64,000 nt of DNA, taken from a virus. A program made the translations under genes and the position numbers. The DNA is taken from the IMG/VR virus record IMGVR_UViG_3300031952_000001, positions 1 to 64,000 of that record; one strand, given 5' to 3'. Below the pieces are notes generated by a model. The model was not told the origin of the DNA, did not search any database, and was given only the letters and a program-made list of their open reading frames with translations. Shown piece by piece: positions 196-59,061 of this stretch (position 1 is the first letter of the stretch; every line of letters starts with the position of its first letter).

Positions 196-227
196 TTTAA
201 AAAATCGAAGTCGTTTCGTGGTACTCT
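196..227 (+). promoter_or_regulatory. Candidate phage late promoter, copy 1
   Basis: An 11-base element TTTAAAAAATC (196-206) is followed after 13 bases by GGTACTCT (220-227). The same two boxes at the same spacing occur at 7878-7909 in front of the tail sheath gene. The right box resembles a -10 hexamer (TACTCT), but no TTGACA lies at -35, so a non-sigma70 or phage-modified polymerase is plausible. It sits 37 bases upstream of the ATG at 265, in one of the few intergenic gaps of this half. Confidence 0.5.
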
Positions 228-264
228 GAGACAGACGGGACTCGTCTACTTTGCGAGGTGATTC

Positions 265-720
265 ATGGGTAGAATGCGGCATAGGGTGGTCGAGGTCGAG
301 CTGGCGGACGGAGAAGAAATCCGCATCACGGATGCTCCCAACAGCGACCCCTTGAGGAACCTGACCATCACGGTGGCCCCTCTGTACGACGGGCCCCTCG
401 TTCCCGCTGGCGGCGGCAACGTCGTGTGCAAGATCTTCTACGGGGGAGGCTACGCCCAGCCGGCCGCGGTGTTCGGGCCGAACTACGAGACGGGCGTCCA
501 GCAGGGCGGTGTCGTGAATCTCGCGTCCGGATCCGCCCTTCCGCGTCGGATCTACACGGACACGGGCATCTGCACTCCGGACCGGTGGAGGGACGGCACC
601 ACGGTTCGCGAGGATGCGAACCTCGCGAGGGCGCTGCACCTGTACAACAACACGGGCGGCGGTTTTACGTTCCGCTGCAAGGTCATGTTCGACTCCGAGG
701 AGCTGAACGAGGCCACCTAG
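265..720 (+). CDS. Hypothetical protein, first gene after the candidate late promoter
   Basis: This encodes 151 residues; the ATG at 265 is preceded by GAGGTG at 255-260. The sequence is rich in Gly, Val, Thr and Asn, has no membrane segment or signal peptide, and looks beta-rich, which fits a small virion or decoration protein. The C-terminal half contains a Gly run and two or three cysteines with no zinc-site spacing. It is separated by 11 bases from the next gene. I do not recognise the family. Its place as first gene of a late-type unit suggests a structural role, by inference only. Confidence 0.6.
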   Translation: MGRMRHRVVEVELADGEEIRITDAPNSDPLRNLTITVAPLYDGPLVPAGGGNVVCKIFYGGGYAQPAAVFGPNYETGVQQGGVVNLASGSALPRRIYTDTGICTPDRWRDGTTVREDANLARALHLYNNTGGGFTFRCKVMFDSEELNEAT

Positions 721-731
721 AGGAGGACCCC

Positions 732-1115
732 ATGCAAGAGTTTCTCGACATCCTGGTTCAGTACGGTCCGTACATCGGGCTCGCGGTCATCGTCGCCGGA
801 ATCGTGCAGTCCTTGAAGCTCGCCTTCAAGAAGTTCTTCACGCAGACCACCGTGGGGATGCGGCTGATGCCCTTCATTCCGTTGGTGCTCGGCATGGTCG
901 GCGGGCTCGTTCTCCCGCAGGAGACCCTCGCGTCGAAGCTGATGGTGGGTGGTGCCTTGGGGACGATGTCGTCGGTGATCTACAACGTCATCACGCGCAC
1001 GTTCGCGAGAGGGACCACCCTCCAGCAGAAGATCGATACGAAGATCGGCAACGGGGCGTCCACTTCGGTAGAGCCTATGGAGCCCCCAGCAGGCCCTGAG
1101 GGCGAAGTGAAATGA
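732..1115 (+). CDS. Small membrane protein, holin candidate
   Basis: The product is 127 residues. The ATG at 732 follows AGGAGGA (721-727), a near-perfect ribosome binding site. Three hydrophobic stretches are visible, roughly residues 12-32 (YIGLAVIVAGIV), 47-62 (LMPFIPLVLGMVGGLVL) and 70-90 (LMVGGALGTMSSVIYNVI), followed by a hydrophilic Pro/Gly-rich tail. Size and topology fit a class I holin, and the next two overlapping genes encode coiled-coil membrane proteins of the kind seen in spanin systems. There is no adjacent endolysin, so this could instead be a virion or superinfection membrane protein. The stop overlaps the next start (ATGA). Confidence 0.6.
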   Translation: MQEFLDILVQYGPYIGLAVIVAGIVQSLKLAFKKFFTQTTVGMRLMPFIPLVLGMVGGLVLPQETLASKLMVGGALGTMSSVIYNVITRTFARGTTLQQKIDTKIGNGASTSVEPMEPPAGPEGEVK

Positions 1116-1477
1116 AGACCCTGGGGAAGATCTGGGCGTGGGTGAAAGCCCACTGGAAGTGGGCCGTCGCCGGCCTGGCGGTGGTCGTCGCGCTCATCGT
1201 GGGTGCGCGCATCGCGAAGGGGCAGGTAGGCCCTCCGCCCATCCCGGAGAAGACCCAGAAGCGCAAGGAGAAGGTCGCCTTCTTGCAGGGTGAGATCAGC
1301 CAGCTCGAAGGTCAGAAGACCGGCATCAAGGCGAAGGAGACCGCGGCCGAGGGCGAGATCGAGGACCTCACCAACCAGGTCACGGAGCTGGACGGGAAGA
1401 TCGCTGTTGCCCGAGCAGAGGTCCCAACACTCTCTGCCGAGGAGAAGCTGAAGCGGTTCAAGGAGCTGGGGTACTGA
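1112..1477 (+). CDS. Membrane-anchored coiled-coil protein, inner-membrane spanin candidate
   Basis: The product is 121 residues. After a short basic, Trp-containing N-terminus there is one transmembrane segment at about residues 17-36 (WAVAGLAVVVALIVGARIA), then a Pro-rich hinge and a long heptad-like coiled coil (about 50-115) rich in Glu, Lys and Leu. This is the topology of Rz-type inner-membrane spanins: a single N-terminal anchor with a periplasmic coiled coil. It overlaps the preceding membrane gene by ATGA and the next gene by TGATG, implying translational coupling. I see no sequence signature proving spanin identity; a tail or pilus-related coiled-coil protein remains possible. Confidence 0.55.
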   Translation: MKTLGKIWAWVKAHWKWAVAGLAVVVALIVGARIAKGQVGPPPIPEKTQKRKEKVAFLQGEISQLEGQKTGIKAKETAAEGEIEDLTNQVTELDGKIAVARAEVPTLSAEEKLKRFKELGY

Positions 1478-1926
1478 TGCGGTGGTTCATTCTCACGATC
1501 TTCGTGGTCCTCCTGGCGGCGCTGCCGGCGCACGCGCAGGACAGCGGCAGCGTCGTCCTCGTGAACAAGGGTGTGACCGGCTTCTGGTTCCCTGAGCCTG
1601 TCGCGACGAAGATGCTCCAGGACCTCGCAGAGCTTCCGCTGCTCCGGACGAAGGTTGCTGCGCTGGAGCTGAAGGTCTCTCGGATGGAGGATCTGAATCT
1701 GCTGATGAAGGACGAGCGCTCTGTCACCGAGCAGATCAGCGCGAAGTGGAAGATGGCGTTCGACGAGCAGTTGAAGATCACGCAGGAGCAGCAGGCCTAC
1801 TACGAGGAGCAGCTCGCGCGTGAGAAGAAGTGGTACAAGTCGCCGGTCCTGTGGTTCAGCGTCGGGGTGATCGCAACGGCTGCGCTTGCCATCGGGCTGA
1901 ACTACGGACTCGCAAAGACACGATAG
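1477..1926 (+). CDS. Exported coiled-coil protein with C-terminal membrane anchor
   Basis: The product is 149 residues. The N-terminus is a clear signal peptide (FILTIFVVLLAALPAHA, probable cleavage after AHA). A coiled-coil-like segment spans about 45-120, and a C-terminal transmembrane helix lies at about 127-145 (VLWFSVGVIATAALAIGL). No lipobox cysteine is present. The arrangement of an exported domain held by a C-terminal helix resembles unimolecular spanins except that the outer-membrane lipid anchor is missing. It is translationally coupled to the preceding gene (TGATG). It may complete a three-gene lysis cassette; an envelope-modifying role is the alternative. Confidence 0.55.
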   Translation: MRWFILTIFVVLLAALPAHAQDSGSVVLVNKGVTGFWFPEPVATKMLQDLAELPLLRTKVAALELKVSRMEDLNLLMKDERSVTEQISAKWKMAFDEQLKITQEQQAYYEEQLAREKKWYKSPVLWFSVGVIATAALAIGLNYGLAKTR

Positions 1927-1935
1927 GAGATTCCC

Positions 1936-2316
1936 ATGGCGGTTCTCAACATTCTCGGCAAGATGACGTTCCCGGGCTCGCCCAGCGGAGCGAACAACCC
2001 AGTGATGATCGGCGCTCCGACGGTGCCGGCTACCTCGACGACGGGGTTCTCGCTGAACTACAACGAGACCGCGCAGTTCGAGTACGTGGTTCCCGCGGCG
2101 GGCACGCGCGTGGTGAACTTCGGCTCCATCGCGACGGGGAAGTTCCTGTACATCGGCACGGACCAGCCGATCACGTACACGATGAACGGCGGCGTGGAGG
2201 TCTTCTCCTTGTCAGCCGGCGGCTTCCTGCTGATCGCAATGGGGAGCCTCTCTGCGCTGACGATCATCGCAGGGGCGCAGGAGGCCCGCGTCTTCGTGCT
2301 GGTGCTGGGAGACTAG
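1936..2316 (+). CDS. Hypothetical beta-rich protein, possible virion component
   Basis: The product is 126 residues with an ATG at 1936 after GGAGATT (1926-1932). It is almost free of charge in long stretches and dominated by Ala, Gly, Thr, Val and Ile, suggesting a beta-sandwich; there is no signal peptide and no obvious transmembrane helix despite the hydrophobic C-terminus. It could be a capsid decoration or tail-associated protein. It lies between the membrane-protein cassette and a 302-residue virion-type gene, all on one strand with short gaps. Function unknown. Confidence 0.55.
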   Translation: MAVLNILGKMTFPGSPSGANNPVMIGAPTVPATSTTGFSLNYNETAQFEYVVPAAGTRVVNFGSIATGKFLYIGTDQPITYTMNGGVEVFSLSAGGFLLIAMGSLSALTIIAGAQEARVFVLVLGD

Positions 2317-2319
2317 ACC

Positions 2320-3228
2320 GTGATCATCCAGCCGGGAGTAGAGCAGCCTTCGGTTGCGAGCATGATCGAGCTTGCTCGGACGAACTCGGTTCGCCGGGTG
2401 GACATCGAGCTGCAAGACTCGACCGGGGCCCTTGTCGACATCGACGCCACCCCGGGACCCGGAGGGGAGCCGAACGGCGTTCTCGACCTGGAGATCACCG
2501 ACGTCGGCGGGATGTCGATCTACAAGGAGTCGTACTACCCCCCGACGCTAAGCGTGCTGGAGCCGAGGATCAAGAAGGCCGCTCCCGGCAGGTACTACAT
2601 CGATCTCGGCAAGGTTCCTCACGAGACGGACAACCCGCAGGCGCTGCTCTTCAACTGGCACTCTCGACAGTCCCTCCTTTCCGAGGAGGTCTACCGCACC
2701 CAGGTCGTCGAGGTGGTGTCTCCGAGGATCCTGTCCCTGCTCCCGTCTCTCCGGTTGCTGATCGACAAGACCGTCAAGCCGAACCTCCCGGAGAAATACT
2801 GCTTCATCGGATACACTGACGGGATGCTGATTCTTTTTCTCAAGATGGGTCTTTCAAAAATAAACGAGTACGAGCCGTACCCTGTCTGGGGGCACATCGA
2901 TCACTTCCCCATCGAGCTGTACTCGAACATCCTCCTGCGGGCTGCTCTGTTCCAAGGCATCACGAGCCAGACGCTCTTCTCCATCGATACGGACGTTCCG
3001 CAGTTCTCGGACTCCGGGCATAGTTTCGTCCTTCAGCACGCGACTCCGTTGGCGGCGTTCCTGGACCGACTGCGTGACGAGCTGGACAAGAGCGTGCCCA
3101 ACCTGAAGCGCAAATTCGTAAACAGCGGCACAATATCTATCGAGATGCGATGCGACCTTGCGTTCAGCATGATGCTTTCATCGGCTCCCTATGGATCTTT
3201 GTTCCGAAACCTTTGGGCTGCGATGTAA
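2320..3228 (+). CDS. Hypothetical protein, probable virion structural protein
   Basis: The product is 302 residues and starts with GTG at 2320, three bases after the previous stop; no strong ribosome binding site is visible, so expression may be coupled. The N-terminal half alternates beta-type segments (LDLEITDVGGMSIYKESYY) and the C-terminal half is helical. I recognise no family. The last 40 codons are less GC-rich and lead into the HNH endonuclease region, but the C-terminus looks complete and ends at a TAA (3226-3228). The neighbouring neck and tail genes make a virion role likely. Confidence 0.55.
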   Translation: MIIQPGVEQPSVASMIELARTNSVRRVDIELQDSTGALVDIDATPGPGGEPNGVLDLEITDVGGMSIYKESYYPPTLSVLEPRIKKAAPGRYYIDLGKVPHETDNPQALLFNWHSRQSLLSEEVYRTQVVEVVSPRILSLLPSLRLLIDKTVKPNLPEKYCFIGYTDGMLILFLKMGLSKINEYEPYPVWGHIDHFPIELYSNILLRAALFQGITSQTLFSIDTDVPQFSDSGHSFVLQHATPLAAFLDRLRDELDKSVPNLKRKFVNSGTISIEMRCDLAFSMMLSSAPYGSLFRNLWAAM

Positions 3229-3257
3229 TAGTTGTTCGATTGGTACTTATGGGTCTC

Positions 3258-3285
3258 TTGACATCGTTCTTTTGATGGTTACATT
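3258..3285 (+). promoter_or_regulatory. Sigma70-type promoter for the HNH endonuclease
   Basis: TTGACA (3258-3263), a 16-base spacer and TACATT (3280-3285). The expected transcription start is about 3292, right at the ATG at 3293, so the transcript would be leaderless or nearly so. The position in a short AT-richer gap before a mobile-type gene supports an autonomous promoter. Confidence 0.5.
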
Positions 3286-3292
3286 AGAGGTC

Positions 3293-4192
3293 ATGGAAGA
3301 CGAACAGAAAAAAGACGACCTTCGAGTGTGCCGGAAGTGCGGGGAACCCAAGGACCTCTCCCAATTCGGAGTGAATCGGCGTACTCAAGACGGTATCCAG
3401 AATTTCTGCAAAACCTGCGTACAGGCCAAGAGCAAAAGGCAATATTACAATACCAATGCGGACAGGCCTCGCCGGTCTCCGAAGCTGAGCGATGAGGAGC
3501 TTTCTCGCAGAAATGCGGCTCGTGCGAAGCGCTGGCGTGAGGAAAAGGGTGAGGTTCTCAACGAGGAGCGGAGGGCCTACTACGAGGCGCACAAAGAAGA
3601 AGTGCGAGGGTCTCAGCAGCGCTACTATCTCCGGAACAAAGAATATTTCCAGGAGCGGAATAAAGAATGGCGTGAAGCTCACAAAGAAGAGCATCGGGAG
3701 AAAAATGCGGAATGGCGGGCTGCGCACCCAGGGTATCGATCTCCGGGAACGCAAGGAAAGACCCTGGAGGGTATAGATCCTGCGTTGAAACGCAACATGC
3801 AGTGCTCTCCGACTGAAAGAAAGAGACGGTACGCAAAGGTTGCTGCGAAGAGCGATCCTGCTACGCACTTGAGGGGTGTTCTGCGGGTTCGGATTAACCA
3901 TGCTCTGCGCTCAGGAAAGAAAACCGGCTCCGCCGTTCGTGATCTCGGCTGCACCGTTGAGGAGCTGAAGACGTACCTGGAGTCCAAGTTCCGCCCACAC
4001 CCGGAGACTGGCGAACTCATGACGTGGCAGAACCACACGACGGATGGCTGGCACATCGATCACATCGTGCCGTTGTCGAGCTTCGACTTGACCGATCCTG
4101 AACAGTTCCGGAAGGCGTGCCACTACACGAATCTCCAGCCGCTCTGGTGGCATGAGAACCTTCAGAAGAGCGCGAAGGTCGAGGCCGCCTGA
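3293..4192 (+). CDS. HNH homing endonuclease with N-terminal zinc finger
   Basis: The product is 299 residues. The N-terminus has a CxxC...CxxC zinc-binding pair (RVCRKCGEP and FCKTCVQA), followed by a long Arg/Glu/Lys-rich helical linker. The C-terminus has the HNH nuclease signature WHIDHIVPLSSFD...ACHYTNLQPLWW with the catalytic His pair and the conserved Asn. Such genes are free-standing mobile endonucleases that nick or cut phage DNA lacking them. I chose ATG 3293 over upstream starts because those overlap the preceding gene and a good promoter ends just before 3293. The stop overlaps the next start (TGATG), so insertion kept that gene coupled. It shares its C-terminus with the second HNH gene at 32620-33630. 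Confidence 0.85.
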   Translation: MEDEQKKDDLRVCRKCGEPKDLSQFGVNRRTQDGIQNFCKTCVQAKSKRQYYNTNADRPRRSPKLSDEELSRRNAARAKRWREEKGEVLNEERRAYYEAHKEEVRGSQQRYYLRNKEYFQERNKEWREAHKEEHREKNAEWRAAHPGYRSPGTQGKTLEGIDPALKRNMQCSPTERKRRYAKVAAKSDPATHLRGVLRVRINHALRSGKKTGSAVRDLGCTVEELKTYLESKFRPHPETGELMTWQNHTTDGWHIDHIVPLSSFDLTDPEQFRKACHYTNLQPLWWHENLQKSAKVEAA

Positions 4193-4446
4193 TGGAAAAA
4201 GAATTGGTATGCGATTTGTTCGACGAATCCGCGCCCGAGAACGAATCCTTGGCGCGTCTCGTCGATGACGGTCTGTGGCAGGAGCTGATCTCCAAGGCCG
4301 AGAGGATCGAGCCGCCGAAGGTTCTCGAAGAGGACAGGGGCTTCGCGATGGATGGATCTCAGAGGAAGGAGCCTTCCGCCGGCCAGGAAGAGGATGCCGC
4401 AGATCCTCTCGCGGCGCTCGTCCAAGAGCTGATCGAGGGCGTGTAG
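4192..4446 (+). CDS. Small acidic hypothetical protein
   Basis: The product is 84 residues, strongly acidic (many Glu and Asp), with no cysteine cluster or membrane segment. The ATG at 4192 overlaps the HNH stop codon, with GAGG at 4181-4184 as ribosome binding site. It probably belongs to the virion operon that the endonuclease invaded rather than to the mobile gene, because its codon use matches the flanking structural genes. Function unknown; a scaffold-like or assembly-factor role would fit its charge but is not shown. Confidence 0.5.
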   Translation: MEKELVCDLFDESAPENESLARLVDDGLWQELISKAERIEPPKVLEEDRGFAMDGSQRKEPSAGQEEDAADPLAALVQELIEGV

Positions 4447-4447
4447 C

Positions 4448-5476
4448 ATGGTTGAGACCACACAGCGCGGCTGCAAGGTCCCGGGCTCCAACATGGCCGT
4501 CGGCTACTGGGGCCGGGACATCCACGCGCAAGTCTTCGCCGAGCAGCAGCTGGGCAAAGAGCGCGCGTTGCTCCAGGAGCAGATCCTCCTCGGCGGCCTC
4601 CGCATGGAGTTGTGGCAGGAGGCCCCTGCCGGGCCCGTGTGCGCCTGCTACAACACGATCAACCTGATGGCGGACCGGAAGTGCATGGCCTGCCACGGGG
4701 TCGGCAGGGTGCCCGGGTACCTGAAGTTCGGGTACAACACGCTGTGGATGTCGGCCTCGGACCCGGACAACATGCTCACGGACCTCCGCCTCACCCGGAA
4801 CTACCAGTCCTCGAAGCTGGAGTTGGTCGACGGTGCGCTCGTGGGGACCGTCGAGAGTGCTGACAAGCCCTTCTCCAGGACGGTGTTCGGGGCTACGTGG
4901 GGTACAAGTGTCCAGTGCTACCTGATGGAGTCGGACTACTCCTCCATCACGGTGGAATACTCGCTCGACGCTGGGGTGATCTGGGCGGCGCTGTCGAACC
5001 TGCCGGCGGAGGTTGCGCAGACGGGCATGATCCGCTTCCGGGCGACCCTGACCCGTACCGAGACCGCGGCGCGCTCGCCGTTGTTCGAGATGCTCAGTGC
5101 GCGGTACGCGACGATCCCTCTGGCGAATCCCGACGTGAACGGCGTGTACCGGAAGGGTCCTTGGATCCTCATCATGCGCGAGCCTCCGTCGACCGGTCAC
5201 CGCAAGCAGGACTACGGCGACCAGCCCATCGAAGAGGGCTTGGAGATGTGGACCGCGGGGTTGTCGATGTTCGACGCTGCGATCCCGGCCGGGAGCATGG
5301 GCGAGGTGATCAAGGGGCCTGAGGTCCTGATGCAGCTCCTCGACGGTGCTCGCGTGGGCAACAGGTACATGGCGACGGCTTGGAAAAACTCGGACCCGAT
5401 GGCGTACATCCTTGTGTCGCAGACGTTCAAGATGCGCATCACCGATGACGTCGATCCGATGAAGTTGGTGTGGTAG
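4448..5476 (+). CDS. Hypothetical virion protein with cysteine-rich N-terminal insertion
   Basis: The product is 342 residues; the ATG at 4448 lies two bases after the previous stop. Around residues 65-83 is a CxC...CxxC arrangement (CACYNTINLMADRKCMACHG) that could bind zinc or iron, similar to DnaJ-type cysteine pairs but isolated. The remainder looks like alternating beta segments typical of head-tail connector or neck proteins. It sits between small virion genes and the sheath unit, so a neck or tail-completion role is plausible. I do not recognise a family. Confidence 0.55.
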   Translation: MVETTQRGCKVPGSNMAVGYWGRDIHAQVFAEQQLGKERALLQEQILLGGLRMELWQEAPAGPVCACYNTINLMADRKCMACHGVGRVPGYLKFGYNTLWMSASDPDNMLTDLRLTRNYQSSKLELVDGALVGTVESADKPFSRTVFGATWGTSVQCYLMESDYSSITVEYSLDAGVIWAALSNLPAEVAQTGMIRFRATLTRTETAARSPLFEMLSARYATIPLANPDVNGVYRKGPWILIMREPPSTGHRKQDYGDQPIEEGLEMWTAGLSMFDAAIPAGSMGEVIKGPEVLMQLLDGARVGNRYMATAWKNSDPMAYILVSQTFKMRITDDVDPMKLVW

Positions 5477-5485
5477 GAGAAGGTC

Positions 5486-5980
5486 ATGAAAAAAGGCATC
5501 ACCCCAGAGGCAGCTCAGCGACTGGAGGCGTTCCTTCAGAAGAGGGCGCAGCAAGGTTACAACCCGGAGGATTGGAGCCCGGCTGACTCCGTGGAGGACA
5601 TCCTCTCTGGTCCGGCGGGTGTGGCCCTTCTTCGAGCTTTTTCCACTCCCGTGGCATCCCTGGAGAACGACGTGATCGGGATTCTCGATAGTGCTTACGA
5701 TCTTTCCAACCAAGAGATTGAAGCAAGTCTCCAGAAGGGTATCGACGGGGCGGGCGCAGCCGTTTCCGCAGAAGGTTTTTCGATTCCAGATCCTGCGGTT
5801 TGGGAGGGGCTGAAGCAGGGTTACGCTGACATGTACAGCACTGTTCTTGGGGAGCTTCGACAAAAGATCTATGACGCTTTTGATAACGCGGCAGCCAATC
5901 TTGCGTATGCGTACCAAGATGCTGCCCTTCAGGAGTTCAAGAAGGCTGCCGCGGGCACGCCTGGGGGGATGGTACCATGA
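5486..5980 (+). CDS. Hypothetical helical protein
   Basis: The product is 164 residues. ATG 5486 follows GGAGAAGG (5476-5483), a good ribosome binding site. The protein is mostly predicted helix, rich in Ala, Glu and Gln, without cysteines or membrane segments. The stop overlaps the next start (ATGA), implying coupling. Its place between two putative neck proteins suggests an assembly or virion role. No family recognised. Confidence 0.5.
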   Translation: MKKGITPEAAQRLEAFLQKRAQQGYNPEDWSPADSVEDILSGPAGVALLRAFSTPVASLENDVIGILDSAYDLSNQEIEASLQKGIDGAGAAVSAEGFSIPDPAVWEGLKQGYADMYSTVLGELRQKIYDAFDNAAANLAYAYQDAALQEFKKAAAGTPGGMVP

Positions 5981-6687
5981 GACGCAACGCTGGCGGGATC
6001 ACGGACGATGGCTTCAGCCGGCTCGCGTCTTTCGTGCAGGCCAAGGAAGAGGACAAGCCCGAGGAGGAGAAGGACTCGGACGAGGGTGGATCGGACAAGG
6101 ACATCAAGCAGGAGCTGGTCGAGTTCCTCAAGGACAATCCGAACCCCGAGGACGAGCTGGTCCACGAGTGGGCCGAGGAGAACGGCTACGAGGTGGACGA
6201 CATCGAGGCCCTCCTGTACGAGCTTGCCACGGACTACGTGGAGTCGAACGATCCGGACTCGGAGGACCTGATCCCCGGCGGCAAGGCCGACGATGTTCCC
6301 GACGAGGACCTCCCGATGGAGCAGATCCTGAAGGGGATCAAGGTCGAGATGGAGCACACGGACGACCCGGACCTCGCGAAGGAAATCGCGTCCGATCATA
6401 TTGAAGAATTTCCGGATGGGGATTACTACGACGCTCTGGCGGACATGGAAGACGAGCTGAAGAAGGAAGGCCGGCTCCCGGGCTGGCCGTCCTCGAAGCC
6501 TTCCGGCTGGGGCTGGCGCGAGGAGATCGCCCCTCCTCGGTGGACCCCCGAGATGGAGAGAGCGGAGGAACCCGACCCACGCGAAGGGTTTGGATCCTGT
6601 CCTGGATGCGGTCAGGATGTTCCTGATCTCCCGGAGGGGGAGCTGTGCGACGTGTGTGACCGTAAGACTCGGAACATGCAGGAGTAG
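5977..6687 (+). CDS. Acidic protein with C-terminal zinc ribbon
   Basis: The product is 236 residues. The first two thirds are extremely acidic (repeated Glu/Asp/Lys clusters such as KEEDKPEEEKDSDEGG), and the last 40 residues contain CPGCGQ...CDVCD, a four-cysteine ribbon that should bind one zinc. Acidic proteins of this kind can be DNA mimics, scaffolds or assembly chaperones; nothing in the sequence decides. It overlaps the preceding gene (ATGA) and ends three bases before the next GTG start. Confidence 0.55.
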   Translation: MRRNAGGITDDGFSRLASFVQAKEEDKPEEEKDSDEGGSDKDIKQELVEFLKDNPNPEDELVHEWAEENGYEVDDIEALLYELATDYVESNDPDSEDLIPGGKADDVPDEDLPMEQILKGIKVEMEHTDDPDLAKEIASDHIEEFPDGDYYDALADMEDELKKEGRLPGWPSSKPSGWGWREEIAPPRWTPEMERAEEPDPREGFGSCPGCGQDVPDLPEGELCDVCDRKTRNMQE

Positions 6688-6690
6688 CCC

Positions 6691-7854
6691 GTGCCGCAGA
6701 ACGACTTCTCAGGACCGCGCGAGTACCGTGGGACCATCCCACGGGACCCCCGCAACCCGCCGCGTTTCGGTCAGCTGATCGAGACGGTGAAGGACGCCTT
6801 CGCCGCGGAGCTGTACCGGTTCTTCGAGTCCAAGTCGGACGACATCCGGGCGAAGCTGGGCGAGTTCCCTGCCATCGAGAAGTTCGCTATCGGTGCCGGC
6901 AGCACCTCGTCGAGCATGGAAACCGTGATGAACCTCATCATGTCCTACGGGAACACCCTGGACAAGTACCCGATGATCGCCATCACCTCCGCCAACGACA
7001 AGGAGTTCGTCCTCGGGCTGGGATCGACCATCGTTTGCGACGGGCAGCAGGCTCCGCGGCTGACAGGTGGCGAGGGCCCCTTCAACCTTCAGGATGGCTG
7101 GACGCTCAGGATCCGGACGTGGCCTCTCGGCCTTGATGGCGATCCGGTGGAGTCGACCTACGAGTTCAAGGACTTCCTGTTCCCGGACATCGCCAACGCC
7201 ACGGTGCAGGACGTCATCCAAGCCATCAACGCGCAGGCGCTGTACACCCAGGCTCGGGAGTCTGGTAACGGGTTTCTCCAGATCGTTTCTGGAGGTCCTT
7301 GCGCTTCGGGGGCGAAGAACGGTCTGGAGATCATCGGAGGCACGCCTGACTGCCTCCTGGCGCTCGGCTACTCCGAGGGGCAGATCGACCTGTACACCGA
7401 CCACACGTCAGGCTCAGCGTCCCCTGTGCAGCGCTACGGCGTGGCCGGGAAGATGACGATCAACTTGGACGTGATCTCTGACGACATGAACACGAGGACT
7501 CAGCTCGCGGATCTCGTGAGAGCTTTTTTCACCTTCTACGTGGATCGCCAGTATTTTCAGTTCCAAGGGCGGTCGTACCTGGACGATTCGATAGACCCTC
7601 CTGAATGGTACCAGATCGTGCTGGACCGGAAGTTCTCGTGGGCCGGCGAGTACCAGCGGGCCCGCCAGGGCGGTGAGCAGAAGTCCTACCTGTACTCGAT
7701 CCGGGGTGCTGTTCCGGTCTTTGCGGCGGACTTCATCGACCGTCAGGTGAACCGCGGTACCGCAACATTTGTCCAGTCCCAGGGTCTCATCCACAAGGAA
7801 GATTTTCCCACGGGAGACTACTTCGGGGTCAATTACCTGAAGCTCGGCCAGTAG
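6691..7854 (+). CDS. Hypothetical virion protein upstream of the tail sheath
   Basis: The product is 387 residues starting with GTG at 6691, with GGAG at 6681-6684. It contains mixed helix and beta segments, including a long beta-rich central part (residues 95-260), no membrane segment, and ends in NYLKLGQ. Being last before the sheath promoter it is in the position often taken by tail terminator or sheath terminator genes of contractile phages, but I do not recognise T4 gp3 or gp15 features. Assigned as virion protein by context. Confidence 0.55.
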   Translation: MPQNDFSGPREYRGTIPRDPRNPPRFGQLIETVKDAFAAELYRFFESKSDDIRAKLGEFPAIEKFAIGAGSTSSSMETVMNLIMSYGNTLDKYPMIAITSANDKEFVLGLGSTIVCDGQQAPRLTGGEGPFNLQDGWTLRIRTWPLGLDGDPVESTYEFKDFLFPDIANATVQDVIQAINAQALYTQARESGNGFLQIVSGGPCASGAKNGLEIIGGTPDCLLALGYSEGQIDLYTDHTSGSASPVQRYGVAGKMTINLDVISDDMNTRTQLADLVRAFFTFYVDRQYFQFQGRSYLDDSIDPPEWYQIVLDRKFSWAGEYQRARQGGEQKSYLYSIRGAVPVFAADFIDRQVNRGTATFVQSQGLIHKEDFPTGDYFGVNYLKLGQ

Positions 7855-7877
7855 GCTCTCCAGTCCTTCGACTTCGT

Positions 7878-7909
7878 TTTAAAAAATCCGACAGCTCCCA
7901 CGGTATACT
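7878..7909 (+). promoter_or_regulatory. Candidate phage late promoter, copy 2 (tail operon)
   Basis: TTTAAAAAATC (7878-7888), 13 bases, then GGTATACT (7902-7909). Both boxes and the spacing match the motif at 196-227. TATACT would be a good -10, whereas no -35 TTGACA is present. The motif sits in the 102-base gap before the tail sheath, whose ATG lies 47 bases downstream, and probably drives the whole tail operon. Confidence 0.55.
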
Positions 7910-31500: not shown

Positions 31501-32123
31501 ACTCGATCAACTACAACCCTCTGTTCCAGATCACTACGCCGCTGATCGACCTCGGGTCGCTGTTCCAGGACTACATGTGGCTCGCGGATTTCGCTTTGTG
31601 GGATCGGATGGAGCACGACCCCTTGTCCCATGAGGCCATCGTTCCGGTGTACTTCACCAAGGAGACCGGGCAGGCGAAGCTGCACCGCCGCTCCGACATG
31701 GTGAAGACGAACTCGACCTTGTACTACGAGGACCCCAACGGGCGCGTCGAGATTTACCCTTCGAGCTGGAGGTTCATCGATCCCTTCACGGTAGCTATCG
31801 ACACCTCGCAGTTCGTTGAGGGGGCTCAATACTACCTCGAACACGGAGAGCAGAGGATCTACCCGACGAGCAGCTTGACGGTGAAGTTCGAGCACCGCTC
31901 CGGTGTAGACTCCCCGGCGTGCCTGGCGGCGGCTTGGTCGGAGATCTCTCGAAACCAGAACGTCACGGTGCACCAACCTGCCGGCGGGCATGTCATCCAC
32001 CAGCTCCGGTTGTCCGTGAGCAGCATCCGGGATCTGAGGGACTTCAGAATACGGTCTGTGGTGCTCAAGGGGCTCCATATTCATGGTGCGACACCGTACC
32101 TTCAAGGGCTCACGAATGTCTAA
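28530..32123 (+). CDS. Giant baseplate or fibre-network protein with repeated beta modules
   Basis: The product is 1197 residues. I chose ATG 28530 because CGGGGGAG lies eleven bases before it and the upstream GTG overlaps the previous gene. The first 230 residues are mixed helix and strand (YADMIKSIISGPFYESRGTV...) and may dock to the baseplate. After that come at least three versions of an approx. 80-residue beta module, at about 29215-29390, 29709-29985 and 30811-31100, each with an LRW core, a DG-x-Y turn and a closing V/I-rich strand; the same module appears in the fibre gene at 33641. Gene order suggests a wedge/fibre connector comparable to T4 gp7-gp10. No protease or enzyme motif seen. 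Confidence 0.65.
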   Translation: MALVGVNRYADMIKSIISGPFYESRGTVVPYRHGNTDIRLMADYPNTVYSLSINEVYEGTVTSDSEGNVVFSRHLALGDNEITLTNLTLGTKLSSWLTTREYAIWLISYAEAFESIDDDWKESKDDLFIASATINGIEDHFGRDLGIYNLFGQDLDSYRWMLHEMRNAFRDHGGKFRGVESAVVALTQVPPFGYTRRFWGPNWVLDQSMLANHRFLKRSCDLAFFGGGISGVTLKSVESDVLEGPFSGVVQYNPATKLIRWGSFGPGPWVPATEGDLFIPGPPSLVDPFILGLAGPFLLSLTKRMLYLNIGAGTVAIDLSLCPGFPAPTVAQLVAFINLAMGVVVASSYNLKLMLSYAADWIRIEPGPRNAALELFGNDPGDLVFAESGVLDGVTFRKITGPIDIATDSVLEYEYSGLVSPATQRLRWASPGGSWPPLLGWVTLTDDGVYILTDALGNTLEIHCIIEDIPTYGAVLITQTLSFSVNYSRTAKRVMETEGLYVYITESLLPAAPIWDVVAVTGDASPANPEAPDWWWVGAWNAGATGVFQPSMVDTDREDDYKPCTAFRYLYSDAAASDVELFGHVLQYPNPQPDKGGLYPQKNPGLLYDYEGFEVKFSAWFLSHTASLVSVDLSFTFDAGATWVAGVPVIVAADAAGAGLEDPTYLEFSAIIPAEVTADNVWVRIRAAQGVPGISFSVDAPHVDVKYITSRALGDTTVARSRHRQFFGELVYLWSPEPLTTVEQKFLGLQHKEADRNSPLAGVVLTSVSTSTPTGASTFEYEYNSAGPSQKLRWSSSAGLWGAGLGWVVVLSDGSYTLDSPDGSSIGVTVVLSALPLLAGTPPAAVYSKSMTISDISVNQGITRRISPAHESIDIFDATEYDTSGVPINLKGIISEVDFSLATLVNLEIFPATPFRYSFLTPTILPVVDEQLVFAGIPPHTASLLYDSDQDQDEAILFENGVPFPNNLWQFNSSNQVLIINPADYNPAAVYSINYNPLFQITTPLIDLGSLFQDYMWLADFALWDRMEHDPLSHEAIVPVYFTKETGQAKLHRRSDMVKTNSTLYYEDPNGRVEIYPSSWRFIDPFTVAIDTSQFVEGAQYYLEHGEQRIYPTSSLTVKFEHRSGVDSPACLAAAWSEISRNQNVTVHQPAGGHVIHQLRLSVSSIRDLRDFRIRSVVLKGLHIHGATPYLQGLTNV

Positions 32124-32598
32124 AGTGAAGTGCATTCTCGGGTTCTTCTGGGCGATCCCGATGTCCATCTTCGGATGGCTGCTCGGGCTGTTCCTGCTTT
32201 TTACCTGGCAGGTGGAGTCCATCGAAGTTCGAGAGGACTGGACATTTGTCTGGGATCTGAAGAACTGGGGCTGGTTCCAGAAGAAGGCGATGGAGATCCG
32301 CGGTTGGGCGGGGTTCTCCATCGGGAATAACGTCTTCATCAAGGACGTGGTGGGCAAGCGCTGGCCGAGGACCTTGGCTCACGAGGTTGCGCATTGCCAC
32401 CAGTGGTACCTTTTAGGAATCCTATTCCCGTTGGTGTACATTCTTGAATGCGTGCGCTTGTACATTTTCAAGAAAGAACTCCATTCGTATTACGACAATC
32501 GTTTCGAAGTGGAGGCTCGTAAGTGTGCAGGACAACCGGTAAAAATACCGAGGACCTCGTGGAAAGACGGCCCGAACGACCGATGGGCCTGGTGGTAG
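32116..32598 (+). CDS. Membrane-anchored HEXXH metallopeptidase-like protein
   Basis: The product is 160 residues. The start ATG 32116 overlaps the preceding gene by eight bases. One transmembrane helix lies at about residues 8-31 (LGFFWAIPMSIFGWLLGLFL) and a second hydrophobic segment at 98-115. Residues 89-93 are HEVAH, a zinc-binding HEXXH motif, and RFEVEARKC at 129-137 offers Glu131 or Glu133 as third ligand, a layout of small zincin proteases. It may cleave an envelope or virion protein. A catalytically inactive fold is possible. It is the only enzyme-like gene in the tail block and sits next to a mobile HNH gene, so it may be cargo or host-derived. Confidence 0.55.
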   Translation: MSKVKCILGFFWAIPMSIFGWLLGLFLLFTWQVESIEVREDWTFVWDLKNWGWFQKKAMEIRGWAGFSIGNNVFIKDVVGKRWPRTLAHEVAHCHQWYLLGILFPLVYILECVRLYIFKKELHSYYDNRFEVEARKCAGQPVKIPRTSWKDGPNDRWAWW

Positions 32599-38399: not shown

Positions 38400-38428
38400 T
38401 TGACATCCCGATCCTCCTTTGCTATATA
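38400..38428 (+). promoter_or_regulatory. Strong sigma70-type promoter of the regulator gene
   Basis: TTGACA (38400-38405), a 17-base spacer and TATATA (38423-38428). The -35 box is perfect and the -10 nearly so. The transcription start should be about 38435, giving a 33-base leader that contains a palindrome (38439-38456) and the AGGAGGA binding site of the regulator gene. Confidence 0.75.
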
Positions 38429-38438
38429 GTACATGTTG

Positions 38439-38936: not shown

Positions 38937-38964
38937 TTGACAGCCCCCAGGCCATGGTTATGTT
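38937..38964 (+). promoter_or_regulatory. Sigma70-type promoter of the Ser-Asp lipoprotein
   Basis: TTGACA (38937-38942), a 16-base spacer and TATGTT (38959-38964). It begins 10 bases after the regulator's stop codon and would start transcription about 38 bases before ATG 39009. A private promoter for a single host-type gene is the classic layout of a phage moron. Confidence 0.6.
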
Positions 38965-39531: not shown

Positions 39532-39561
39532 TTGACACCACCCCTTCTCTGATCGTAAGGT
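39532..39561 (+). promoter_or_regulatory. Weak sigma70-type promoter candidate before the zinc-finger gene
   Basis: TTGACA (39532-39537), 18 bases, TAAGGT (39556-39561). The -35 box is perfect but the -10 is poor. It lies in the 176-base gap between the lipoprotein and the C2H2 protein gene; the rest of the gap shows no terminator or reading frame that I can support. Confidence 0.3.
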
Positions 39562-50624: not shown

Positions 50625-50668
50625 ACAAGGCTCTGATACGTGCCTTTTACGTGACTTTGTAGGTGAGA

Positions 50669-51607
50669 ATGGATCCGAGAGACTACATCCTTTCCCGACT
50701 GCCTGGTATGGCGTTCAATTCCTCGGGGCAGATCCATACTAGGTGCCCGTTCCACAACGACAATTCCCCGTCTTTCTCGATCCGAGAGGACGGCGTTTTC
50801 GTGTGCGGGTCCCCGAAGTGCGGTATCCGCGGCTCGTTCGCCTACTTCTACAAGCTGATGGAGCACATCGAGTCGTGGGCGCAGGTCTACAAGGACCTCC
50901 GCCTCACGAACGTGACTCCTGACCTCGAAGAGTTGTTCGCCGAGAAGAAGGGCGAGACGAAGAAATACTGGATTTCCGACTTCCCGCAGCCACCGATGAT
51001 CGAGCCGATCAGGTCCATCAAGTACCTCGCTGACCGCGGTTTAGGACCTGATATTGTGTCCAGGTATGGTCTTTGGTATGGGGTCGGTGGGGCAAGCGCC
51101 GGTATCGCCATCTCGGACTCCATCGTCGCACCTGTCTACGATCTCAACGGGGCCTATGTCACCTTCCAGGTTCGGTACCTCGCGCCCTCGGCTCCGCAGC
51201 GGTGGAAGATGCCGAGCGGTTCTGCGGCTCAGACTATTCTCTACGGCGGGTGGCTGGTAGGTTCGGTGGTCAGCAAGCACCTCTGGATCGTGGAGGGCGC
51301 GAGTGACGTTTGGAAGCTGGCGAGCTTCGGAGCCCAGGCCGTGGGACTCTTCACGAGCAAGGCCTCTGCATCCCAGCTCAACCGAATCCGAGATCTCTGT
51401 GTCTGCCACTCCTTGCAGCCTGTTGTGTGCCTGGACGGGGACGCGCGGTTCGTGAAGGGGGGCAAGGAGATCGATCTCGGTCTGAAGATAGCGAACGAGC
51501 TGGCGGCTTTCGGGCTCGATGCGCTGTTGGTCCATCTGGACAAGGTGGAGGATCCCGGGTCTTTGACATACGACCGGCTCCGAGAGCTGAATGGGGCGCT
51601 GTCTTGA
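50669..51607 (+). CDS. DnaG-like primase
   Basis: The product is 312 residues from ATG 50669 (GTG 50663 possible). Zinc-binding residues Cys26, His29, Cys46 and Cys51 form the CHC2 finger, with SPSFSIREDGVFVCG between. From about residue 190 the TOPRIM fold appears: LWIVEGASDVWKLASFG with the catalytic Glu, VGLFTSKAS, and VVCLDGDA with the Asp. It makes RNA primers for the phage fork. It is about half the length of E. coli DnaG because the C-terminal helicase-interaction domain is absent. The stop overlaps the next TTG start. Confidence 0.85.
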   Translation: MDPRDYILSRLPGMAFNSSGQIHTRCPFHNDNSPSFSIREDGVFVCGSPKCGIRGSFAYFYKLMEHIESWAQVYKDLRLTNVTPDLEELFAEKKGETKKYWISDFPQPPMIEPIRSIKYLADRGLGPDIVSRYGLWYGVGGASAGIAISDSIVAPVYDLNGAYVTFQVRYLAPSAPQRWKMPSGSAAQTILYGGWLVGSVVSKHLWIVEGASDVWKLASFGAQAVGLFTSKASASQLNRIRDLCVCHSLQPVVCLDGDARFVKGGKEIDLGLKIANELAAFGLDALLVHLDKVEDPGSLTYDRLRELNGALS

Positions 51608-52365
51608 AGAGTGCTCTGCAAAAACAGATTTTGACTATCACGGAGGCTCTGAAGCGCGACGATTCTGAGCAGGCGCAGGTTTTCTGCAAGATGGCTCCTT
51701 TCGTTTTCAAGTCGGTGGTCCGGATCGCTCAGATGACCAATACTTCCGAGGAAGACATCCTCGGAGAAGTCCTCTGCGTGTTCTCTGCTGCTTGTGATCT
51801 CTACAAGGCCCCTGTCTACAAGTACCGTGAGTCCTTGTACCAGTGTCGTGGGGAGGAGGGGGGACTACTTCTTCTGGAGACCCCGAAAGGGAACAAGATT
51901 CGAAGGTCTCTGAGAGTGGAGAAGTCGAAGGTCACCGAAGTACGCCGAGCAGAGTTCTTCAACTTCCTTTACAAAAAGATCCAGCAGCAGTGTGTTGATA
52001 TTTTGCGGGGATCTTTCATGTGTAAGAGGGCTGTTTCTACCGAGGTGATCTCTTTGGAGGGTTGCGATGACGGCATGCTCGGTGCGCGGGTTGATTTTTC
52101 CAGCGATCCAGAGAGCCTCTTCTCGGCGGCGCAGATGTACTATGAAATCGTTCCGCAGCTTTCTGATCAGGCACGAAAAGTCTTTGATCTCTTTATAGAG
52201 GGTGCGTTTAAGTCGAACAAGGGTTTGTCGAACAGTCTGCGGATGAGCATGCGCAGCGTCTCGGCGGCGAAGCAGGAAATACTTCGTGCCTACTACCGCA
52301 CGGAGCGCTCTTTCGTTCAGGATTCGGAGTTGCAACCCATCTACCTAACGGCGGGTGACTTTTGA
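51604..52365 (+). CDS. Sigma-70-like RNA polymerase factor
   Basis: The product is 253 residues, starting at TTG 51604 by overlap with the primase stop. Region 2-like helices appear around 45-70 (TSEEDILGEVLCVFSAACDL) and 100-130 (RAEFFNFLYKKIQQQCVDIL), and a region 4-like helix-turn-helix near the C-terminus (LSDQARKVFDLFIEGAFKSN, then NSLRMSMRSVSAAKQEILRA). Similarity to ECF-type sigma factors is by pattern, not strict. A phage sigma would redirect host polymerase to the TTTAAAAAATC/GGTAYNCT promoters before the virion genes. Alternative: a related replication-control protein. Confidence 0.6.
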   Translation: MKSALQKQILTITEALKRDDSEQAQVFCKMAPFVFKSVVRIAQMTNTSEEDILGEVLCVFSAACDLYKAPVYKYRESLYQCRGEEGGLLLLETPKGNKIRRSLRVEKSKVTEVRRAEFFNFLYKKIQQQCVDILRGSFMCKRAVSTEVISLEGCDDGMLGARVDFSSDPESLFSAAQMYYEIVPQLSDQARKVFDLFIEGAFKSNKGLSNSLRMSMRSVSAAKQEILRAYYRTERSFVQDSELQPIYLTAGDF

Positions 52366-53516
52366 TAACGATTCAGGACAACGGCTTCATCGTCGACTAC
52401 CACTTGATGACCGACTTCTGTCGAGCCCTGGAGAAGTGCAACCCCAAGAACGACTACGTCTACCTGTCCTACGATGGCGCGGTTTTCAGCATGTTCTCGC
52501 AGACCGTTACTGCTTCCGTCATCGTGTCTCTCAACGCGACAGGAGGCAAGACCTTTGGTTTCGGTGTCGAGTCGGGGAAGTTTTTGTCCTTGTGGAAGAA
52601 GCTGTATGTGGGCAGCACCATTAAGTTCAAACCTTCCCGGGAGCAGCTCATCATCTCGGAGGACAACATCTCGGTGAAGTTCCCGACGGTACAGCACATC
52701 AAGCACTACAAGTTTCCCGAGATGATCACGGTATTTGGTCCACATGTCGAGGAGCTGACGAAGGCCTTGTCGATTTGTGAGGTCTCCGTTGGCGCGAACA
52801 AGCAGGCTCCGGGGATCCTGATCGACAACACCGCTCCGGGGATGTGCCGGGTGGTTAAGATCGGGAATTACTCCTACCGGATGTGCTCTTGCAGCAAGCA
52901 ATCGTTCGGGGATGTCCGTATCGTCGTTTCGGACGAGTTCTGTTCCGCGGTTTCCGCGCTTTCGAAATGGTCTAAGTCTTCGTCCTTGTTCGGGTCCATC
53001 ACGGCGCTTATGGTGTCTCCGGCCAAGGTCGGAGCTGTGCTGAGCAGCGGCGTCCAGTTCTACATGCCCACCTTGCACGACGCGATCCCGTCGTCCTATG
53101 TGTACGACTTCCGGTTGCTGCCGAACAGCCTGGAGCAGGTCGCTCGTGAGGGGCGTGTCTACACGTTCAGCCAGAAGCGGCTCTCCGAGGTGCTCGATCT
53201 GGTGGCTGCGGTGATCGGGACCGAGGAGTCAATGCTCCTGATGGAGATCGATGGTCTGGCAGCGGCGTCCGGCAATCCAGTGTTCAAGATCAGCGCGAAG
53301 ACCCACGACGGCTGCGAGGTCTCGGAGTTGGTAGAGGCCCTTTCGAAGGGCCCGACGGATCTGGAACCCTTTAGGGTAAACAAGAGTCAGGCGCTCTTGG
53401 CACTCAAGAGCTACGAAGGAAATCTGGTTCTTATCGACCGGCTCAACAACCCCCTGCTCGTCCTGCAAGACGAGTCCGGGAGGGACGTGACGTTCCTCCT
53501 CAAAGCTCCGGCGTGA
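52362..53516 (+). CDS. DNA polymerase sliding clamp (beta-like)
   Basis: The product is 384 residues, close to the 366 of DnaN, starting with TTG 52362 overlapping the sigma-like gene stop. Three domains of similar length can be traced; the last strand pair (FRVNKSQALLALKSYEGNLV, then DRLNNPLLVLQDESG, ending TFLLKAP) resembles the C-terminus of beta clamps, including the conserved NPLLV and terminal hydrophobic-Pro strand. The ring holds the phage polymerase on DNA; a clamp-loader subunit is encoded at 59061. Assignment rests on length, pattern and context. Confidence 0.75.
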   Translation: MITIQDNGFIVDYHLMTDFCRALEKCNPKNDYVYLSYDGAVFSMFSQTVTASVIVSLNATGGKTFGFGVESGKFLSLWKKLYVGSTIKFKPSREQLIISEDNISVKFPTVQHIKHYKFPEMITVFGPHVEELTKALSICEVSVGANKQAPGILIDNTAPGMCRVVKIGNYSYRMCSCSKQSFGDVRIVVSDEFCSAVSALSKWSKSSSLFGSITALMVSPAKVGAVLSSGVQFYMPTLHDAIPSSYVYDFRLLPNSLEQVAREGRVYTFSQKRLSEVLDLVAAVIGTEESMLLMEIDGLAAASGNPVFKISAKTHDGCEVSELVEALSKGPTDLEPFRVNKSQALLALKSYEGNLVLIDRLNNPLLVLQDESGRDVTFLLKAPA

Positions 53517-58185: not shown

Positions 58186-59061
58186 ATGGCGAAGGCACAA
58201 TGGGTTCGTTGGAAGGACGGCGGGGGCCCTCGGGTCATCGGATCCGTCGGGTTCAACCCCGCGCAGCCCTGGGGGCCCTGGACGAAGGTCCTCGGCGTGG
58301 TCGCGCGTTGCGAGGGCAACCACGACACCGTCGTCATGTACGACGGCACGGGGGTGACCTGGGGGTTCCTACAGTGGACTTTCACCAGCGGCCGGCTCCA
58401 GAAGCTCCTGGAGAGCTTCAAGTCGATCCCGCTGGAGAACGGACACCACACCTTGTTCGATCAGGTGTGCTTGGAGGCTATCGGGGGTCCTCAGGTCTTC
58501 TCCCGGTTCGGCTTCCAGATCAGAGATGGGAAGTTCTGGGTTGGTGGAGTGGCCCTTGACCCCAGCAATTCTGCCAGCAAGAAGTGGATCGTCGACATCT
58601 GCATGGGTGTCGAGTTGGCTAACCCGAACAAGACGGCGCTCGCGCTCGCGCAGCTGTTCGCGGACATGGGTGCGAAGCCCGGTGTCCCCGAGGCCCAGCT
58701 CGCGTACGCCAAGGCCGAGTTCGCCCGGCAGCTCGACTACCCGAGGCCTCCGCTGGGAGGGAGGACCATCAGGGACCTGCTCAAGGCGGACAACCCGGCG
58801 TCGTGGGACTCCGCTCTGGTCGCGTTGTTCTTCAACCTGTGGCAGAACAACCCGGGGGCGGCCTACAAGCTGTTCTTGAAGGCCACGTCCAGCTCCAGTG
58901 ATCTCGTCGAGGACTACTTCCGGAAAGCCTGGAAGATGACGAACCTCTCGACGTTCGGGCAGTGGGGCTGGAAGAACGACCCGAAGAGCCCGAGGTGTTT
59001 GCGCATCGCCAAGGCGATCAAGGAGTTCTACGGCATCGCTTTGCCGTTCTATAAACCTTGA
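58186..59061 (+). CDS. Lysozyme-like peptidoglycan hydrolase, endolysin candidate
   Basis: The product is 291 residues from ATG 58186 after GGGAAGG. Residues about 40-75 read VVARCEGNHDTVVMYDGTGV, then TWGFLQWTFTSGRLQKLL: an early Glu followed by a YD-G and a WGFLQ element, the pattern seen in some lysozyme-fold muramidases. The remainder is helical with no signal peptide or membrane anchor, as expected of an endolysin that needs a holin. It lies within the replication block, not near the holin-like gene at 732. Identification is by pattern; a catalytic Glu at about residue 47 is a guess. The stop overlaps the clamp-loader ATG. Confidence 0.5.
   Translation: MAKAQWVRWKDGGGPRVIGSVGFNPAQPWGPWTKVLGVVARCEGNHDTVVMYDGTGVTWGFLQWTFTSGRLQKLLESFKSIPLENGHHTLFDQVCLEAIGGPQVFSRFGFQIRDGKFWVGGVALDPSNSASKKWIVDICMGVELANPNKTALALAQLFADMGAKPGVPEAQLAYAKAEFARQLDYPRPPLGGRTIRDLLKADNPASWDSALVALFFNLWQNNPGAAYKLFLKATSSSSDLVEDYFRKAWKMTNLSTFGQWGWKNDPKSPRCLRIAKAIKEFYGIALPFYKP

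Follow-up and report, generated by a model that had tools for sequence, protein, structure and literature searches.

In Salmonella phage 7-11 the host sigma-70 factor serves the early promoters, and a phage sigma factor, SaPh711_gp47, is paired with bipartite late promoters of the form GTAAtg-16-aCTA, eight of which lie before late genes; the late consensus is described as not common to the sigma factors of related phages (PMC8948821). For Kayvirus vB_SauM-515A1, 58 sigma-70 early promoters are set out alongside 12 late promoters, the latter mostly in the virion region and characterised by a long −10 box (TGTTATATTA) with no −35 box, a phage sigma factor having been inferred as their reader (PMC7698491). 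The T4 gp55/gp45/gp33 system employs a divergent phage sigma factor, gp55, which is similar to sigma domain 2 only and whose C-terminus is a clamp-binding epitope (PMC2988020); gene 118 of the jumbo Pseudomonas phage PaBG encodes another divergent sigma factor, the same source placing Virus Rctr197k near PaBG (PMC7412058). The subject of the present analysis is a bipartite motif found before virion genes in a 64,000-nucleotide stretch of viral DNA (‘the window’, bases 1–64,000 of the 211,982-bp viral record IMGVR_UViG_3300031952_000001, named G000 in our comparisons), together with a sigma-like protein encoded at 51604 as its candidate reader. We regard the phage as another case of an established arrangement, in which a phage sigma factor serves late promoters of bipartite form, with a consensus of its own and a putative reader.

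The likeness to phage 7-11 lies in the pairing of bipartite late promoters with a phage sigma factor and in the early use of host sigma (both predicted here); the box and hexamer are different, however, the phage is much larger, the upstream box runs to 12–14 nt, and the sigma-like gene sits beside that of a sliding clamp. As in Kayvirus, many sigma-70-type promoters stand against few of late type, the latter mostly in the virion region, but the present sites have a strongly conserved upstream box. To the T4 late system, with its clamp-binding sigma factor, the phage may be likened through a sigma-like gene that adjoins a clamp gene and encodes a conserved C-terminal ‘PIY’-type tail; unlike gp55, which matches domain 2 only, our model resembles both regions 2 and 4. 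T4 late promoters are not known to have an upstream box. T4 middle promoters, which combine a MotA box with a −10 element, offer the same layout of an upstream box at fixed distance from a sigma-70-like −10, although the box sequence is a different one and the sites described here precede virion genes. The link to PaBG runs through Rctr197k and the virion genes that it has in common with this phage; in the extract of the PaBG paper no promoter class is reported (PMC7412058). Literature searches, those on Rctr197k included, did not find the present promoter class in the entries and extracts returned, and a search on the string TTTAGAATCCC gave unrelated papers only.

The two sites of the window, TTTAAAAAATCGAAGTCGTTTCGTGGTACTCT at 196–227 and TTTAAAAAATCCGACAGCTCCCACGGTATACT at 7878–7909, have identical spacing and lie in intergenic gaps of 89 bp and 102 bp respectively, just as the initial annotation had described them. 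Its remark that there is no third copy holds for the window, where only these two are found at ≤3 mismatches (none being expected from 100 shuffles), but not for the full record, in which the same threshold returns seven forward, no reverse and no reversed-control matches; copies with a gap one base shorter are located at 74241 and 183760. What had been taken for an A-tract element is indeed a conserved box, though one that reaches beyond the A-tract as YTTTWRRAWYCC-N-A and is accompanied by a −10-like TATANT, the site consensus being YTTTWRRAWYCC-N-A-N12(±1)-TATANT. Copies of CGAAGTCG or its complement, reported as flanking the A-tract, are present at 206 and 7869 but absent from the other 10 independent sites; with an occurrence at 2/12 independent sites and 34 copies dispersed over the record, we consider this string incidental and have rejected it as part of the element.

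Across 32 sites, hand-picked from earlier matches using matrices that contain the box columns, the distance from box to hexamer is 14 nt in 22, 15 nt in eight and 13 nt in two. The box carries C at position 11 in 32/32 sites and at position 12 in 28/32 (both columns within the selecting matrices), and a T, an A and a T of the hexamer are invariant, its variants being TATACT, TATAGT and TATAAT. The second base after the box, a column scored by no matrix, is A in 28/32 (binomial P = 4e-16, a value that assumes independence of the sites, an assumption that does not hold for orthologous ones). By analogy with sigma-70 promoters, the box would be placed at about −38 to −25 and TATANT at −12 to −7.

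A weight matrix built from 12 chosen sites gives 15 matches at ≥20 bits on the record (12 of these being the training sites); 13 are intergenic rather than randomly placed within genes, and 12 lie ≤120 nt before a gene in the same sense, as called by a simple coding-potential script. At this threshold the reversed record and 10 Markov simulations both score zero. At 74241 the match extends over the last part of the gene before it but is 46 nt ahead of gene 74317; that at 114913 overlaps a gene start, and that at 32411 is within a gene. Since the contig ends (1–1321 and 210615–211930) overlap at 88% identity, and the relatives G001, G003 and G006 each contain this gene only once, the site at 210810 is treated as the same locus as 196; the overlapping ends probably represent one place on a circular map, as present in two strains. 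The record has 12 strong independent copies, all oriented with the downstream gene and positioned 20–72 nt before its start. Judged from sequence, the sites are probably a recurrent phage-specific promoter class of at least 12 members, larger than first noticed; nor is the motif tied to two virion units as originally proposed, genes at 74, 96 and 98 kb being included too.

That both window sites lack TTGACA, and that replication and accessory genes have TTGACA promoters, is borne out by a promoter scan. A permissive sigma-70 matrix identifies 54 promoter-like places ≤150 nt before genes, some of which are the motif sites themselves; 21/54 are at 120–140 kb among small genes, and three precede the replication block. 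Virion blocks contain 9/12 motif sites (three are exceptions) versus 3/46 TTGAC sites (P = 4e-6), in a comparison restricted to 46 of the 54 rows by dropping seven overlapping motif or motif-like sites plus site 20425 (TTGAAA, virion block; its inclusion gives 4/47), and with block borders at 38.4 and 163 kb that were set from gene content after the sites had been seen. The virion blocks are defined by the genes for sheath, an adjoining virion structural protein, protease, portal and terminase, the replication block by those for primase, DnaB, PolA, SNF2 helicase, clamp and clamp loader. Two promoter classes with differing genome distributions are thus a part of the proposed two-stage transcription programme that is supported. 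A further feature of the record is seen at 118–131 kb, where near-identical TTGACA-GCC...GGTGGT-TACATT promoters occur at roughly one per small gene, with the spacer conserved too.

The motif stays before orthologous genes whilst the surrounding DNA diverges. The 192-kb relative G001, whose sheath is 68% identical, was excluded from matrix training; all 11 of its matches at ≥16 bits are intergenic, in sense and 23–81 nt before a gene (reversed control: two). Of 127 reciprocal-best ortholog pairs between G000 and G001 (median identity 51%), nine have the motif before both members, two in G000 only, one in G001 only and 115 before neither (P = 3e-11, strict threshold); the equivalent figures for 108 pairs with G011 (median 47%) are five, five, zero and 98 (P = 2e-6). 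Before the sheath genes of seven lineages (sheath identity 60–95%), the 12-nt box, a 14-nt spacer and TATAMT keep to one 26-nt register. A scan of viral contigs with the consensus, using no protein information, returned six places, two of which belong to new relatives: contigs of 104 and 163 kb (41–42% G+C) that are identical around the site and therefore count as one lineage, with the motif 75 nt before a sheath gene (53% identical). On the 163-kb contig, G016, the top-scoring sites are also found ahead of the protease ortholog and of the gene that contains the ortholog of 190606. The remaining four matches were discounted, as they lie in AT-rich regions with no gene related to those of this phage; copies from an exact-pattern scan in the AT-rich G004 (34.7% G+C) and G005 (30.0%) were likewise put down to chance, as their best matches lie inside genes.

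A protein placed between primase and sliding clamp is conserved along with the motif. The order primase, sigma-like gene, clamp is found in G000, G003 (where only the primase and sigma-like gene were inspected), G001, G008/G011, G009 and G016, and the sigma-like homologs share 71% identity in G003 and about 24% in G001, G008/G011 and G009. In G016, which was found by motif alone, the slot between primase and clamp is occupied by a 271-aa (amino acid) protein that matches the sigma-like profile with E 2.6e-7 in an unfiltered hidden Markov model (HMM) search. An AlphaFold model built from five homologs (mean predicted local distance difference test score, pLDDT, 68) was compared with the PDB: 45 of the best 50 rows are sigma chains (identified by title, or by chain letter where the title gives the holoenzyme only), the others being two UPF0122 or similar helix-turn-helix (HTH) proteins and three chains that cover residues 69–116 only, which we take to be SH3-like; model residues 69–114 superpose on 3c4s with Z 7.5 and a root-mean-square deviation of 1.5 over 45 residues. 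The predicted fold of the model resembles sigma regions 2 and 4. The initial designation of this protein as sigma-like is supported to some degree by predicted fold and by a gene place kept in five further phages, but not by the Pfam and PHROG sigma profiles, which have no match to it.

The C-terminal tail is conserved in 4/5 aligned sigma-like homologs. Searches by tblastn in phages, and a related-locus search from the single sequence, gave nothing; homology to PaBG gp118 was considered and rejected (hhalign gives no match, probability 0.2%). For the neighbouring clamp-like protein there is no Pfam match, and no clamp homolog in the PDB by sequence. Virus Rctr197k has no motif match at ≥14 bits and no homolog detected by the sigma-like profile in its partial genome; by BLAST, 39 of the 295 called G000 proteins are matched there, many of them virion proteins, with primase and clamp not among them. 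Within six phages that have both and one that has neither, and as far as seven phages can show, motif and sigma-like gene come and go together.

We consider it reasonably probable that these elements form a sigma cascade, in which a phage-specific late promoter class is served by the phage sigma-like protein, host sigma acting early. Early and replication genes, the sigma-like gene included, would lie behind TTGACA-type promoters readable by the host sigma-A holoenzyme; the sigma-like protein would then join the host core RNA polymerase, its region-2-like part touching the hexamer and its region-4-like HTH touching the box, and head, tail and associated genes would thereby be switched on. We infer from the DNA that transcription may start at the motif, late in infection, with protein 51604 as the reader. 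Situated in the replication block, the sigma-like gene has TTGACA-type promoters ahead of it and no strong motif copy, features that suit an early/middle protein by which polymerase would later be redirected. Because no RpoB/RpoC domain (PF00562, PF04997) was found, the host core RNA polymerase is the likely enzyme (controls were positive in 14/14, although very divergent phage polymerases could escape); for the single-subunit type there was no PF00940 match, but its control did not match anywhere either.

A number of observations weigh against the cascade. Three of the 12 sites fall in other parts of the genome than the virion blocks, and one of these, a well-matching copy of the motif, precedes a transposase-like gene (phrog_506, record 96409–97593). 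With a broader matrix the excess over the reversed control weakens (13 versus one in G000, 13 versus four in G001, eight versus two in G011), and in G009 four matches against three reversed amount to no enrichment by count; since reversed controls rise with the broader matrix, a genome-wide regulon in G009 is unsupported beyond its sheath site. Rctr197k is a single case, and one partial genome. The sigma-like protein has no sigma region 2/4 match in Pfam, PHROG or PDB sequence searches (profile PF04542 has none, and PF04545 has one weak match, at 158892 in an HTH-repeat protein), its PDB Z scores of 7.0–8.4 fall in a range that, by the tool’s own warning, is often reached by helical folds and may be unspecific, and no Foldseek match of the model reaches E 0.001. 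In G016 a filtered search with the sigma alignment found nothing, only the unfiltered HMM search detecting the homolog. Finally, TATANT is close to the sigma-70 −10, such that host sigma-A plus an activator fits as well.

It is this sigma-70-like hexamer that makes host sigma plus an activator the main rival: host sigma-A holoenzyme would read TATANT and a phage activator would bind the upstream box at fixed distance, in the manner of MotA, the activator that acts on the upstream box of T4 middle promoters. The drift of the hexamer between TATACT, TATAGT and TATAAT is of sigma-70 type, the box is long (12–14 nt) and nearly fixed in its distance, and the phage has other DNA-binding proteins, e.g. 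that at 158853–159395 of the record, which contains HTH repeats and matches PHROG ‘late transcriptional activator’ families. This protein has no reciprocal-best ortholog in G001, however, where motif and sigma-like gene are both conserved; a conserved activator candidate was not identified, whilst the conserved protein at 51604 offers, in the model, a sigma-4-like HTH. On balance we find the activator scheme somewhat unlikely. Host sigma alone, primary or alternative, for which the A/T-rich box would act as a weak −35 or as an element of UP type, appears decidedly improbable: TTAAAA at 18–19 nt from TATACT does score as a weak −35 in the permissive scan, but neither TTGACA nor an A/T element explains the conserved C at box positions 11 and 12, and a consensus scan of 84,980 bacterial and archaeal genomes gave 17 scattered matches, one on each of the contigs listed and many of them from Bacteroidota, in which nothing resembling a regulon was seen. 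A non-promoter role as A-tract, terminator or replication/packaging element, for which the placement of sites in gaps between genes (where terminators would lie) might speak, is very improbable given that the 12 strong sites share the orientation of, and a 20–72-nt distance to, the downstream gene, that both window sites lack a terminator-like stem, and that the −10-like hexamer has its invariant T, A and T in 32 sites.

The sigma cascade could be taken further, to a novel branch within the sigma-70 superfamily that has a small SH3-like barrel inserted in region 2, reads an unusually long box and links late transcription with replication via the adjacent-gene clamp through the conserved C-terminal tail, i.e. 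a T4-like logic reached independently; this extension we put forward as speculative and rather unlikely.

Table 1. Positions in the window of the promoter-like sites and genes discussed.
Feature	Position	Strand	Remarks
Late-type promoter 1 (predicted)	196–227	+	Box 196–207, −10-like hexamer TACTCT 222–227; ATG at 265; orthologous sites in G001 (58794–58826), G003, G006
First gene behind promoter 1, 151 aa	265–720	+	No PHROG or Pfam match; conserved in relatives
Late-type promoter 2 (predicted)	7878–7909	+	Box 7878–7889, 14-nt spacer, TATACT 7904–7909; ATG at 7957; seven lineages keep this register ahead of the sheath gene
Tail sheath gene, 834 aa	7957–10461	+	tblastn: Virus Rctr197k 36.7%, Bacillus phage G tail sheath gp178 27.1%
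Possible weaker motif copy, unconfirmed	32411–32442	+	22.0 bits; inside gene 32116–32598; also in near relative G003, not independent
TTGACA-N19-TATAGT promoter-like site	38400–38430	+	Before gene 38468, replication side
TTGACA-N16-TATGTT promoter-like site	38937–38964	+	Before gene 39009
TTGACA-N18-TAAGGT promoter-like site	39532–39561	+	Before gene 39671
DNA primase	50669–51607	+	phrog_47, E 6e-34 (open reading frame 50663–51604)
Sigma-like protein, 253 aa, candidate promoter reader	51604–52365	+	Predicted sigma-2-like helices, beta insertion ~69–114, sigma-4-like HTH ~168–240; from AlphaFold, PDB comparison, syntenic homologs
Sliding-clamp-like DNA polymerase processivity factor	52362–53516	+	Directly after sigma-like gene; phrog_947 E 3e-5 here, 2e-10 and 5e-7 in two homologs

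Elsewhere in the record, a transfer-messenger RNA (tmRNA) with the tag ADADVIPFPKMAVPSLQREAA is encoded at 101345–101713 (Rfam RF00023, 82 bits). Its neighbours are tRNA-Met and tRNA-Pro, and no genes were called in the 1.9 kb that contain all three; a second gene-free stretch of 1.9 kb by the same gene calls, 132862–134767, has no Rfam match. The 1429-aa portal protein (198745–203034) contains matches to endonuclease- and other enzyme-type PHROGs, which probably mark an intein.

For a group of ~200-kb phages represented here by metagenomes and a single partial genome only, the analysis provides a proposed transcription programme with exact predicted promoters and a named candidate reader. The promoter also serves as a search handle, the DNA consensus alone having found further members of the clade. 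Should the sigma-like protein prove active, it would add to the known repertoire a sigma factor missed by sequence profiles, and with it an orthogonal promoter–sigma pair.

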